In this document: piece after piece, positions 11,041 through 36,543 of the stretch
How positions within the stretch are numbered: position 1 is the stretch's first letter
Layout: every line of letters begins with the position of its first letter
From: a virus
Direction: 5' to 3' (one strand)
Length of the DNA: 42,969 nt
IMG/VR virus record: IMGVR_UViG_3300046373_000062
Span: 1 to 42,969 of that record
Position numbers and translations under genes: made by a program
Notes under the pieces: generated by a model
Databases searched by the model: none
Seen by the model: the letters and a program-made list of their open reading frames with translations, nothing else
What the model was told of the DNA's origin: nothing

Positions 11041-11114
11041 GTACAACGGGTGGACTCGAACCACCGACTTCCGGGTTTGACGCCCGGCGCTCTAGCCAAC
11101 TGAGCTACGTCGTA
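11041..11114 (-). tRNA. tRNA with anticodon UCA (UGA-reading?) and unusual G33
   Basis: Full cloverleaf: acceptor TACGACG/CGTTGTA with one G-T, D-stem GCTC/GAGC with GG in the loop, anticodon stem CCGGG/CCCGG, T-stem GGTGG/CCACC with loop TTCGAGT. The 7-base anticodon loop is CGTCAAA, so by standard numbering the anticodon is TCA (34-36), which would read UGA. Position 33, nearly always U, is G. CCA is not encoded. Identity is uncertain; it could be an opal-suppressor-type tRNA, or one not active as an elongator. Confidence 0.7.
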
Positions 11115-11117
11115 TTA

Positions 11118-11192
11118 TGGTAGCAGGTATGGGAGTTGAACCCATCTGGGATGCTTATGAGACATCCAACCTCACCGGAAGTAGAACCTGCA
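11118..11192 (-). tRNA. tRNA-Met (CAT)
   Basis: Acceptor TGCAGGT/ACCTGCT with a U-U mismatch at 1-72, A73 and encoded CCA; anticodon stem GATGT/GCATC with loop CTCATAA, anticodon CAT; T-arm ATGGG-TTCAACT-CCCAT. The D-stem is weak (three pairs). The unpaired 1-72 position recalls initiator tRNAs, but the three GC pairs of the initiator anticodon stem are absent. Could also be a CAT tRNA-Ile read after modification. Confidence 0.75.
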
Positions 11193-30211: not shown

Positions 30212-30773
30212 TGATCTTCTCCTTGATTACGTTTGACCATTGTTTTGCGACATCAGCCCACGATGTATTCGGGACTGGTGTACCTGTTCGCTTTTCCCTG
30301 AGGCCAGCCACGACTGCGGCAATGAACTCAGCTTGAGCATCTTTATCTTTTGAAATGTTCTGTGAGTCTATCTTGCGTCCGCTCTGAACCGTCTCTGCGA
30401 GTGCAGCAACAGAGGTGACGACTGGATAACAGCCTGCTTCCTGGGCCTTAAGTGCGGTGATACAGTGGATTTCTTCGAACTCAGTTGGATACGCCCATAC
30501 CTGTGTTTCTTGCATTGCCTTGGCTAGTTCTTCGTGTGAGACCCGGCCATGGACGGTAACGCCCTGATCTTTAAGCTGTTCAAACTTCTCCTCCATACGG
30601 AAGTAAAAGTCATCTTCGCCTTGGATAGCAACCCAGCTTTCCCAGCCGTAGTAGACGTCTAGCGTCGCGTCCGGGACATGTTCACGGATCGTAGGCCACA
30701 TATCAAGTAGGGTCTCAAGGCCGCGATAGTATGCACTAAAGTAACCAACACTGTTAGTCTTCTTTTTTATCAC
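30180..30773 (-). CDS. C-terminal half of a GT4 (GT-B) glycosyltransferase
   Basis: A 197-residue product that corresponds only to the nucleotide-sugar-binding Rossmann domain of a GT4 enzyme: SAYYRGLETLLDMWPTI, PDATLDVYYGW, VTVHGRVSHEELAKAM, and the E-x-E...E nucleotide-binding segment near residues 98-112 with AYPTEFEEIHC...EAGCYPVVT. The N-terminal acceptor domain is absent and is instead found at the end of the protein at 32453-34120, beyond GroEL. Start is a GTG at 30773 overlapping the GroEL end by 20 bases. It probably works with that protein as two chains. Confidence 0.75.
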   Translation of the reverse strand: MIKKKTNSVGYFSAYYRGLETLLDMWPTIREHVPDATLDVYYGWESWVAIQGEDDFYFRMEEKFEQLKDQGVTVHGRVSHEELAKAMQETQVWAYPTEFEEIHCITALKAQEAGCYPVVTSVAALAETVQSGRKIDSQNISKDKDAQAEFIAAVVAGLREKRTGTPVPNTSWADVAKQWSNVIKEKINERTSSTTAS

Positions 30774-32322
30774 TGTCTTCTTCCTTTCGGGCGATAAGTA
30801 CGCCAGCCGTTAGTGCTGAACCAGCAACAGAGGTAGCGTTCAAGACAGCCTGTTTAATAACGAGTGCAGGGTCGATGATACCGTGTTCCTTTAGGTTGAC
30901 TGGTGTTTCAGGGTCGCCCATGATATCATAGCCCATACCAAACTCAAAGCCTTCAAGCTGTTTAAGCTGAACACCATAGCGAAGTCCGGCATTTTCCATC
31001 AGGACCTTGAATGGTGCCTTGAGCGCTTCACGAAGGAGTTTATCACCGTCGCTATCGCCAAGTAGTTCAGATGCAAGACGGATATAGGTCATACCACCAC
31101 CAGGAACAACACCTTCTTTGAGTGCGGCCTCTGTCGCGGCAACAGCGTCATCAATGAGGTATTTACGCTCTTCAGCTTCCATTTCAGTGTTGCCACCAAC
31201 ACGGATTTGGCCAACCTTAGCTCGCAGTTGTGCAATACGTTTTTCAATCTTACTGCGGTCGAACTCAGTCTTTGTTTTGTCTAGCTTAGCTGATAGGTCG
31301 GTGATGTATTCAGTAACGTCCCTACCGCCAGTAATAATCGTTTCCTCAGGGGTAGATACGATTTCTTCGCAAGTACCAAGTTCTTCTACGGTAATGTCAG
31401 TAATCTTCTTCTGGAATTTTTTACCAGTAACTTCAGTACCGGTGAATGCCGCGAGGTCACGGAGTAGTTCCATACGTTGTTCGCCAAATCCAGGCGCTTT
31501 AATGCCGATGACAGTAAACTCATCAATATGGCTTAGTGACCACTGAAGAAGGTCTTCGCGGAAGTCATCAGCGATGATAACGAGTGACGAGTGGCCGAGG
31601 TTGAACAGTTCGTTCGTCAGGGCGATAGTATCTTTCAGGCCAACAGTCCCGTGGTAAAGCAGGATGTGAGGGTGTTCGATACGGGTAGTCTGGGTGCGCT
31701 GGTCGAGAATCATCATTGGGCTTAGAAGTCCTTTATCGAATACGTAGCCTTCGACAATTTCATACTCAGTCGCAGGTTTCGTACCGAGTTCGACGACAAC
31801 CATACCATCCTTACCTAAGGTGTGGTACATTTCGCCGATTTTTTCACCAATCTCTTTGCTTTCACTTGAGATAGTAGCGATTTCTACCGCAGCTTTCTTG
31901 GTTTTAATCGGTTCAGCGAAGCGTGGGAGTGCATCTAGAACAGTTTCCGCAGCTTTGTCAAGTTCACGACGAAGCATCATTGGGTTTTTGCCGTTCTCAA
32001 TCATCTGCATACCACCACTCATCAGGTGATAGGTCAGAATAGTCGAAGTGGTCGTTCCATCACCTACATTATCATTCGTTTTGCTCGAGCTTGACTTAAT
32101 CATCTCGATACCAATTTCAGCGCCAGGTGAGAGTCCATCGACATTTTCGATTGACTTAGCGACAGTCACGCCGTCATGGGTAACAATCGGTGCGCCATAG
32201 GCACCAATGAATGCATTCTGGCCTTTTGGACCGAGCGTCGTCGATACAGCCTCGTAGAGAAGCTTTGCGCCGTCTAGCAGCTGTTCTTTGGCTTGTTTGC
32301 CAGTGATTACAACCTTCTTCAT
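30754..32322 (-). CDS. groL: GroEL-like chaperonin
   Basis: A 522-residue chaperonin from the ATG at 32322 (GCAGGTGA upstream, TAATG overlap with the preceding small gene). A TTG at 32343 would add seven residues but is unlikely. Family motifs: TTLGPKGQNA, the ATP loop VGDGTTTSTIL, and GVVPGGGMTYIR. The C-terminus ends KEEDSDKKED without the GGM tail of cellular GroEL. No GroES gene is visible, so it would use the host co-chaperonin or none. It probably folds virion proteins. It sits between the two halves of a glycosyltransferase. Confidence 0.9.
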   Translation of the reverse strand: MKKVVITGKQAKEQLLDGAKLLYEAVSTTLGPKGQNAFIGAYGAPIVTHDGVTVAKSIENVDGLSPGAEIGIEMIKSSSSKTNDNVGDGTTTSTILTYHLMSGGMQMIENGKNPMMLRRELDKAAETVLDALPRFAEPIKTKKAAVEIATISSESKEIGEKIGEMYHTLGKDGMVVVELGTKPATEYEIVEGYVFDKGLLSPMMILDQRTQTTRIEHPHILLYHGTVGLKDTIALTNELFNLGHSSLVIIADDFREDLLQWSLSHIDEFTVIGIKAPGFGEQRMELLRDLAAFTGTEVTGKKFQKKITDITVEELGTCEEIVSTPEETIITGGRDVTEYITDLSAKLDKTKTEFDRSKIEKRIAQLRAKVGQIRVGGNTEMEAEERKYLIDDAVAATEAALKEGVVPGGGMTYIRLASELLGDSDGDKLLREALKAPFKVLMENAGLRYGVQLKQLEGFEFGMGYDIMGDPETPVNLKEHGIIDPALVIKQAVLNATSVAGSALTAGVLIARKEEDSDKKED

Positions 32323-32456
32323 TATTTTGTCACCTGCGTCCAATCATTAAGTTGTAGGTTCCAGTAATAAAGCATATTGTCGTTGCCAAGTCCGTAAACT
32401 AGACCGTTCGGGCTAACAGCGATCTGTAGGATGGTTGGTGTGGTTGTTGGTGTCAT
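32322..32456 (-). CDS. 44-residue tectonin/propeller-blade-like protein
   Basis: A short gene with a full AAAGGAG site seven bases before the ATG, coupled on both sides: ATGA with the glycosyltransferase stop and TAATG with the GroEL start. The product contains one blade-like unit, ILQIAVSPNGLVYGLGNDN then LYYWNLQLNDWTQV, as in tectonin/beta-propeller repeats. It may be a remnant or a real small partner of GroEL or the glycosyltransferase. Confidence 0.65.
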   Translation of the reverse strand: MTPTTTPTILQIAVSPNGLVYGLGNDNMLYYWNLQLNDWTQVTK

Positions 32457-35714: not shown

Positions 35715-35782
35715 GATACATATTCCATTTTTGTTTTAGTTTTCGAGTGCGGAGTACGCTTTTTACTCGTTAATTACTTATC

Positions 35783-35827: not shown

Positions 35828-35854
35828 GAAAAAGCCCCGCAGGTGCATCGGGGC
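35828..35854 (-). terminator. Terminator of the Trp/Asn/Gln tRNA operon
   Basis: GCCCCG...CGGGGC on the - strand followed by TTTTTC; it separates the tRNA operon from the late promoter. Confidence 0.85.
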
Positions 35855-35919
35855 AATCTCATACAAATCAACAAAACAAGCGGGTTACTTTATTTTGCTT
35901 ATTAATAATATCATGTATA

Positions 35920-35996
35920 TGGCACTTTCGCTAGGACTTGAACCCAGATTGACGGGACCAAAACCCGTTGTCCTACCTAATTTAGACGACAAAAGT
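35920..35996 (-). tRNA. tRNA-Gln (TTG)
   Basis: Acceptor ACTTTTG/CGAAAGT, D-stem GTCT/GGAC, anticodon stem ACGGG/CCCGT with loop TTTTGGT (anticodon TTG), T-arm CTGGG-TTCAAGT-CCTAG, G73 as expected for Gln, CCA encoded. Confidence 0.92.
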
Positions 35997-35999
35997 ATG

Positions 36000-36075
36000 T
36001 GGCACCCACGGCTGGATTCGAACCAGCAACCCCTTCGTTAACAGCGAAGTGCTCTACCTGTTGAGCTACATGAGT
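36000..36075 (-). tRNA. tRNA-Asn (GTT)
   Basis: Acceptor ACTCATG/CGTGGGT, D-stem GCTC/GAGC, anticodon stem CTTCG/CGAAG with loop CTGTTAA (anticodon GTT), T-arm GCTGG-TTCGAAT-CCAGC, G73 and encoded CCA. Standard cloverleaf. Confidence 0.95.
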
Positions 36076-36144
36076 ATGTAAGGTGCAAGGGAAGTGTTTA
36101 GTTGCGACTCCCGCCTGGTCTGGCTCCCTTTACCATGATGAGTA
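36076..36144 (-). ncRNA. Stable hairpin between tRNA-Asn and tRNA-Trp
   Basis: About 69 bases with AAGGGAG pairing to TTCCCTT around a 30-base, partly paired interior. The stem length equals a tRNA acceptor stem but there is no T-loop or anticodon arm. It is either a decayed tRNA or a processing spacer. Confidence 0.4.
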
Positions 36145-36216
36145 TGGCACAGGAGGTAAGAGTTGAACTTACTAGCGGTCGGTTTTGGAGACCAACTTCG
36201 CACCTTGCGCTCCTGT
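36145..36216 (-). tRNA. tRNA-Trp (CCA) with a minimal D-arm
   Basis: Acceptor ACAGGAG/CTCCTGT (fully paired), anticodon stem TTGGT/ACCGA with loop CTCCAAA (anticodon CCA), T-arm GTAAG-TTCAACT-CTTAC, G73 and encoded CCA; A1-U72, G5-C68 and G73 fit Trp identity. Only 14 bases lie between acceptor and anticodon stem where about 19 are usual; they can fold as CGCA-agg-TGCG, without U8, A9 or G18G19. Total 72 bases with CCA. Confidence 0.75.
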
Positions 36217-36218
36217 TT

Positions 36219-36242
36219 ATAAAAATAGCCCTTTGCGGGCTA
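36219..36242 (-). terminator. Attenuator-type terminator directly before tRNA-Trp
   Basis: TAGCCC-gcaaa-GGGCTA followed by TTTTTAT on the - strand, ending three bases before the tRNA-Trp 5' end. As no promoter lies between, tRNA transcription must pass it. Confidence 0.75.
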
Positions 36243-36267
36243 CTATTCTCTTGACTATCAGAAAAAG

Positions 36268-36324
36268 CTACGCCCCGGAGGTGTATTCGTTAGAGCTATT
36301 CTGATTTTGCCAAGTAGTCTTCAT
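36268..36324 (-). CDS. Possible leader peptide rich in Trp, Gln and Asn codons
   Basis: An 18-codon frame, MKTTWQNQNSSNEYTSGA, between the promoter (36405-36433) and the terminator (36219-36242). It contains one Trp, two Gln and three Asn codons, exactly the three amino acids served by the tRNAs that follow. A stem pairs 36294-36303 (codons 8-10) with 36259-36269 after the stop; alternative pairings with the terminator arms exist (AATAGC with GCTATT). No Shine-Dalgarno is evident, which weakens the case that it is translated. Confidence 0.45.
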   Translation of the reverse strand: MKTTWQNQNSSNEYTSGA

Positions 36325-36404
36325 GTGTATGATGTGGTTTAGTTATCGAGTGCCCGTTTGCTGTTCTAGCACAGAAGGCCGGACCGAAAGAAGCTTGTGG
36401 TTGT

Positions 36405-36433
36405 ATATTACCACAGAAACTATTTTTTGTCAA
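36405..36433 (-). promoter_or_regulatory. Promoter of the Trp/Asn/Gln tRNA operon
   Basis: TTGACA, 17 bases, TGG then TAATAT on the - strand. Expected start near 36398, about 180 bases before tRNA-Trp. Confidence 0.8.
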
Positions 36434-36508
36434 TAAGGAACGCCGGACCACAGGGGAAGTCCGGCGCAGGAGAAAGGCCACGATCTGAAGACCCCGACAG
36501 ATCATGAC
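36432..36508 (-). ncRNA. Candidate ~75-nt small RNA with anti-Shine-Dalgarno linker
   Basis: Bounded by the promoter at 36515-36543 and a terminator-like stem CGCCGGAC/GTCCGGCG (36441-36466) followed by TTCCTTATT. A first stem GATCT/AGATC lies at 36482-36503. The unpaired linker reads GGCCUUUCUCCUGC, complementary to AGGAGAAAG, the core of several early ribosome sites in this genome. The frame crossing it (36296-36505) is not protein-like. Confidence 0.6.
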
Positions 36509-36514
36509 TAGTAC

Positions 36515-36543
36515 ATTATAACATAAGCTTCGTGATATGTAAA
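36515..36543 (-). promoter_or_regulatory. Promoter of the small RNA at 36432-36508
   Basis: TTTACA, 17 bases, TGT then TATAAT on the - strand; consensus extended -10. Confidence 0.8.

Follow-up and report, generated by a model that had tools for sequence, protein, structure and literature searches.

A putative leader-peptide attenuator before a phage tRNA operon, with codons that match the operon's own tRNAs

Results

A minus-strand tRNA operon with a short leader frame

The window, the whole stretch of 42,969 bases that we analyzed, is a virus record that carries terminase, portal, capsid, and phage GroEL genes. A tRNA operon is encoded on the minus strand, where it precedes the terminase gene. 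A sequence-only reading of this DNA had placed a promoter, an 18-codon frame, a terminator, genes for tRNA-Trp, tRNA-Asn, and tRNA-Gln, and a last terminator in that order, and our analysis recovered the same arrangement:

36405..36433, minus strand: sigma-70 type promoter, TTGACA-17-TAATAT, TG-extended
36352..36392, minus strand: 5′-UTR element with TTCTTT, stem P1 (GTCCG/CGGGC), inner hairpin CTGT/ACAG, and an AGCAAAC strand
36268..36324, minus strand: leader peptide frame MKTTWQNQNSSNEYTSGA, from ATG at 36324 to TAG at 36268, with homologous frames in five relatives
36220..36244, minus strand: terminator hairpin 3:4 (36244-36224), AGTAGCCC-gcaaa-GGGCTATT, followed by a short U-run
36145..36216, minus strand: tRNA-Trp, CCA anticodon, very short D arm (read directly, with a below-cut-off model score)
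36000..36075, minus strand: tRNA-Asn (GUU), clear
35920..35996, minus strand: tRNA-Gln (UUG), clear
35828..35853, minus strand: terminator 3′ of the tRNA genes, GCCCC..GGGGC TTTTT, identified by eye

The promoter had been called a good one, which its hexamers, 17-base spacing, and TG at 36433-36405 bear out, and promoters of like kind occupy the equivalent place in L002, L003, L004, L005, and L037. The 3:4 hairpin alone has a computed energy of -12.0 kcal/mol. A simple terminator scan returned no entry for the 36244-36224 hairpin on the minus strand, probably because the stem takes up two T's.

The tRNA-Asn and tRNA-Gln genes are supported by sequence and structure, and nearby genes for terminase, portal, and capsid mark the genome as that of a phage. 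In the tRNA-Trp gene, the acceptor and T stems are perfect and the CCA end is encoded. ARAGORN did not detect it, and it matched only the tRNA-Sec model, at a below-cut-off 24.2 bits; its tiny D arm explains why the standard models overlook it. Since a proper tRNA-Trp is found at the equivalent place in L002 and L005, we regard this as a probable tRNA gene, with the short D arm as a caveat. The earlier statement that exactly Trp, Gln, and Asn tRNAs are encoded holds for the operon but not for the window, which contains two more tRNA-like genes at 11041-11192 (minus strand), outside the operon. One is a tRNA whose UCA anticodon reads UGA and whose position 33 is, unusually, a G; it adjoins a tRNA-Met-like gene with a short D arm.

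The layout is shared by five relatives

Using terminase to gather relatives, we found five phages that share the window's layout of promoter, 5′ element, short frame, terminator, and tRNA cluster. Their terminases are 73-85% identical, while the leader sequences are largely different. The tRNA clusters and leader peptides are:

L002: tRNAs Trp Pro Asn Gln; leader MSKLWQPSTTNPQPNDLVVGV
L003: tRNAs Pro Tyr Leu Asp Asn His Gln; leader MTNYQLNQPDTNSTQ
L004: tRNAs Pro Tyr Asp His Asn (Asn by Rfam and by eye); leader MSNFNQHQPQNYDPHSDGAGV
L005: tRNAs Trp Pro Leu Asp His Asn Gln; leader MTNLNQHQPYFDLDTYGVSI
L037: tRNAs Pro Asn Gln; leader MTKHYNNQPQDITIA

An intrinsic terminator follows the leader ahead of the first gene in 6/6 phages, that of L002 overlapping the end of tRNA-Trp; in terms of position, it precedes the first tRNA in each relative except L002, where it is placed after tRNA-Trp. 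L031 (MW202497), L034, and L038 have neither a tRNA cluster at this locus nor a leader frame. All three retain the 5′ element, and L031 and L038 retain the terminator too. When 2.9 million viral contigs were searched with a promoter-plus-element DNA pattern, the expected relatives were recovered, with no additional tRNA operon of this type. Scans with terminase, portal, GroEL, and the DNA pattern indicate that the group is nearly exhausted in IMG/VR. A nucleotide search of phage records gave matches at the tRNA level only, and two genome scans (terminase profile and GroEL) found no host or prophage.

Approximately 75 nt separate the promoter from the leader frame. The 5′ element in this region has the general form TTCTTT, a stem of variable sequence, an inner hairpin, and AGYAAAC. 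Its shape is kept in nine phages with differing P1 sequences, as judged from single folds, its MAFFT alignment being poor. We considered whether the element marks every promoter of the phage and rejected this: promoter-linked copies occur only here, at the tRNA-less counterparts, and before the L034 terminase gene. The element may set pausing or translation. The sequence GCACTCGAWAACTAAAMC is present twice on the minus strand, at 36336-36353 in the leader 5′ region and at 35733-35750 in the terminase 5′ region.

The leader frame and its start

The 18 codons of the window's leader specify M K T T W Q N Q N S S N E Y T S G A, with W5, Q6, N7, Q8, N9, and N12 as control codons. Across the six phages, the reading frame is gapless over the first codons and all leaders (6/6) end in TAG. 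The gap from stop to terminator is 25 nt in four phages, 29 nt in L004, and 54 nt in L002. Substitutions by codon position (85, 84, and 110) lean to the third, with counts too few for reliance.

The leader's start and stop are conserved but, as the sequence-only reading had remarked, no Shine-Dalgarno site is present at its start, compared with 30 of the 44 listed window frames that have one by a loose pattern. The latter count led us to reject the idea that this phage does not use Shine-Dalgarno sites. Since such sites are used elsewhere in the phage, their absence at the leader counts against translation there. The terminase gene, likewise the first after its promoter, also has no clear Shine-Dalgarno site.

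Leader codons track the downstream tRNA set

With five relatives that have both tRNA clusters and leaders, we could examine whether leader codons and tRNA sets co-vary. Among the 104 leader residues of the six phages, 49 are cognate to the tRNA set of their own operon. Dinucleotide shuffles, which preserve the A/C-rich composition, gave 28.7 cognate residues (sd 4.0), and 0/5000 reached 49; A/C-rich composition alone as the source of the Asn, Gln, Pro, and His codons was rejected on this basis. Off-frame translations were mostly poorer in cognate residues. When the tRNA sets were permuted among the six phages, the observed presence/absence agreement over the first 14 residues was reached in 8/720 permutations, a test that ignores phylogeny in leaders related by descent. 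Of the 49 cognate residues, 46 belong to codons at which, by prediction, stalling would have an effect, a positional count that is inflated because late leader codons are partly fixed by the G-rich antiterminator.

Pro is found in the leaders of exactly the five phages with tRNA-Pro. Trp codons occur only in phages with tRNA-Trp, although they are missing from L005 despite its tRNA-Trp, and Asn and Gln codons are present in all six leaders. There are also mismatches: the L004 leader has Gln codons without a tRNA-Gln, the L037 leader has His, Tyr, and Asp codons whose tRNAs are absent from its operon, and L003 has tRNA-His with no His codons in its leader. Overall, residues track tRNA sets across the six phages, and the loss of these codons in relatives with the same tRNAs, which the sequence-only reading had named as evidence against an attenuator, was not what we found.

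A different explanation is that an independent small RNA is produced from the promoter, 5′ element, and terminator, with the tRNAs arising by read-through or processing and the frame being an accident of A/C-rich sequence. The promoter, element, and terminator are present in L031 and L038, where both the tRNAs and the leader frame are missing, which fits this idea, as does the fact that A/C-rich DNA favors Asn, Gln, His, Pro, and Thr codons. However, composition-keeping dinucleotide shuffles never reach the codon match or the switching described below, and the frame, the TAG, and the spacing are conserved. We therefore consider this explanation very unlikely.

Predicted folding depends on ribosome position

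We folded the RNA ahead of the ribosome with the ribosome set at each codon in turn. Two further structures compete with the terminator:

36250..36314, minus strand: 1:2 hairpin, CTTGGC/GTCAAG (36314-36309 : 36255-36250), with a second part ATCAGAA/TTCTGAT (36305-36299 : 36263-36257)
36237..36275, minus strand: 2:3 antiterminator, GGGC 36275-36272 : GCCC 36240-36237, with a second part TTTTCT 36265-36260 : AGAGAA 36251-36246

In the folding, the 1:2 hairpin forms when no ribosome is on the leader, and 2:3 is favored with a ribosome on codons 4-14, before the 3′ arm of the terminator is made. A stem over codons 8-10 had been described previously; an alternative stem does exist, but it covers codons 4-10 and its other arm lies past the stop. 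In the free leaders of the group, the start of the frame pairs with the segment after the stop and the terminator also forms, a pattern that is less clear in L002.

When a ribosome occupied codons 6-10, upstream RNA was paired with the terminator's 5′ arm in 0.67-1.00 of the ensemble, as assessed ahead of synthesis of the 3′ arm. Moving the ribosome to the stop codon mostly removed this pre-pairing (0.01-0.30), and the terminator formed (0.91-0.98). The difference in pre-pairing averaged 0.74 for real leaders and 0.15 for shuffled leaders (z 5.9, 0/200), and the difference in terminator formation was 0.50 for real and 0.03 for shuffled leaders (z 7.1, 0/200). Footprints of 11-17 nt left the direction of the switch unchanged. 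Thus, folding by ribosome position, a check proposed with the original reading, gave a switch in the direction that attenuation requires, far beyond shuffles, in silico.

The strength of the switch varies among phages. It is cleanest in L037, where CGTAGGGTT pairs with AGCCCTACG. For the window, the computed energies of antiterminator and terminator are close (-13.6 and -12.0). In L003, the terminator wins at equilibrium even under a stall (P 0.94), so that its switch would have to be kinetic, depending on folding order. In L002, the leader frame extends into tRNA-Trp at its 5′ acceptor strand, and the partner 3′ acceptor strand doubles as the terminator's 5′ arm. With the ribosome at codon 13, we predicted an extended tRNA stem, GTAGGGGTGT:GCGCCCCTGC, and a terminator probability of 0.09; with the ribosome at the stop codon, the terminator was back (0.94). 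Since the frame ends inside tRNA-Trp and the acceptor strand is shared with the terminator, the folded tRNA-Trp itself appears, in these models, to be the antiterminator.

A riboswitch that works without translation, in which a protein or ligand on the 5′ element sets the hairpins, could account for the conservation of that element's shape in nine phages, those without a leader frame included. The switching segments, however, lie in and around the frame and outside the 5′ element, and Rfam riboswitch matches are absent. The T-box covariance model likewise gave no match in the window or relatives at the gathering threshold and none at E<=1 in the window leader region. We judge such a riboswitch marginally less probable even than a small RNA. 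Rfam leader families (Trp, His, and similar) also gave no match.

Discussion

A model for ribosome-mediated control of the tRNA operon

Our data support a model, to which we assign a probability of about 0.85, in which a ribosome-mediated attenuator controls the phage tRNA operon by sensing decoding speed at codons for the same tRNAs. The conserved layout, frame, stop, and spacing, the codon match, and the computed dependence of folding on ribosome position all argue for it, in agreement with the attenuator suggested by the sequence-only reading; leader translation and actual read-through of the terminator are steps that we infer. A ribosome would trail RNA polymerase through the leader frame. 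If Trp, Gln, and Asn tRNAs were plentiful, it would reach the TAG and cover segment 2, allowing the 3:4 terminator to stop transcription before the tRNAs. If any control tRNA were scarce, the ribosome would wait in codons 4-12, leaving the start of the frame unable to pair with segment 2; the freed segment 2 would instead pair with the terminator's 5′ arm (2:3), letting transcription continue into the tRNA genes. With zero translation, 1:2 would form and the terminator would remain on. As new tRNAs would relieve the stall, the operon would be self-limiting.

The natural trigger would most likely be the loss of host tRNAs in the infected cell, caused for instance by the host's own anticodon nucleases, and not starvation for amino acids. 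The shortage of charged tRNAs proposed earlier is thereby narrowed: a missing tRNA molecule is the more sensible signal, since supplying more tRNA does not make up for a missing amino acid. Both host defenses that cleave tRNAs and phage tRNAs that withstand such cleavage or stand in for the lost tRNAs have been described (PMC10264068, PMC11555353). From these defenses, and because the operon's product is tRNA, we infer that what the leader detects is the loss of tRNA in an infected cell. More tentatively, and with somewhat less than even odds, the system may be an on-demand, self-limiting counter to tRNA depletion, in which matching tRNAs are released upon loss to host defense and shut off when levels are restored. 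One leader would read several tRNA families (Trp, Pro, Tyr, Leu, Asp, His, Asn, and Gln across the group), with codons rewritten whenever the tRNA cluster is altered; in one phage, the leading tRNA would now serve as antiterminator.

Alternatively, the leader could be an attenuator that responds to slow translation or amino-acid starvation in general, with codons that are slow in the host and phage tRNAs that serve those slow codons. The N/Q/H/P core common to leaders, even without cognate tRNAs (Gln in L004; His, Tyr, and Asp in L037), is consistent with this possibility. Yet Pro codons follow tRNA-Pro, Trp codons follow tRNA-Trp with one exception, and amino-acid starvation is not relieved by more tRNA, making a general sensor rather unlikely, albeit the strongest of the competing explanations.

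Relation to known attenuators

The proposed tRNA-operon attenuator resembles the trp/his-type attenuators of enterobacterial amino-acid operons (PMC1183508) in having a leader peptide with control codons, mutually exclusive 1:2, 2:3, and 3:4 pairings, a stop that overlaps or adjoins segment 2, a terminator directly before the operon, and codons cognate to what the operon supplies. It differs in that tRNA genes rather than biosynthetic enzymes are controlled, the carrier is a phage, each leader contains codons for several amino acids and this set varies with the tRNA set, a tRNA would act as antiterminator in L002, and a Shine-Dalgarno site is absent.

In ilv-type leaders, control codons for several amino acids are present in one leader, and any of them can stall the ribosome. 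The ilv operons are among those listed in PMC1183508. Our leaders share with them the use of multiple amino acids in one leader but differ in that the product is a decoding tRNA, such that feedback would act on tRNA rather than on amino acid. T-box riboswitches also couple the state of tRNA to terminator read-through; however, they sense uncharged tRNA directly by base pairing and have no leader peptide.

The reason for tRNA genes in phages has been a matter of debate for more than 50 years (PMC10264068). Work on tRNA clusters with which phages offset the depletion of host tRNAs (PMC10264068, PMC11555353) similarly treats phage tRNAs as a supply during infection; its subject is tRNA sequence and supply, and a text search of both papers found no mention of attenuation. 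Full-text literature searches, whose coverage excludes most subscription journals, found no earlier description of such an attenuator. If our model is correct, it would extend leader-peptide attenuation from biosynthetic genes to tRNA genes, and leader codons that name the downstream tRNAs would be the phage's own statement of when those tRNAs are needed, namely when these codons decode slowly. The question of why phages carry tRNAs would then be linked to one that is simple to test: the loss of which tRNA opens the operon?

Other features

Several other conserved features were noted in the window and its relatives. A large RNA-like stretch (GGCTGCACGGCTAGGAC ... AGTGCAGAGGG), with no Rfam match, occurs near the tRNA cluster and terminase in L002 (3700-3930), L004 (3640-3880), and L031 (330-560, opposite strand). 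A variant is present in L034 (360-690), L037 (4290-4640), and L038 (4410-4750), and the stretch was not found in the window. A conserved structured leader, GAGGG..CGTCTCTC..CAATGGGGGCTTCGG..CACTCCC..AAGCCCCC, precedes tRNA-Met in L003 (2720-2850) and L037 (3370-3500) and is also found in L034 (230-350), L031 (1370-1510), and L002 (3000-3110); it had no Rfam match in L002, L003, or L031. The phage-encoded GroEL (30754-32343, minus strand) is conserved in the whole group at 59-71% identity.

Just upstream of the operon, at 36440-36543 (minus strand), is a small-RNA-like gene of approximately 70 nt with a strong promoter (TTTACA/TATAAT) and a strong terminator. It is also present in L003, L004, L005, L031, L034, and L038. 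Its conserved YTTTCTCCT stretch resembles an anti-Shine-Dalgarno sequence, potentially able to base-pair with AGGAG sites.
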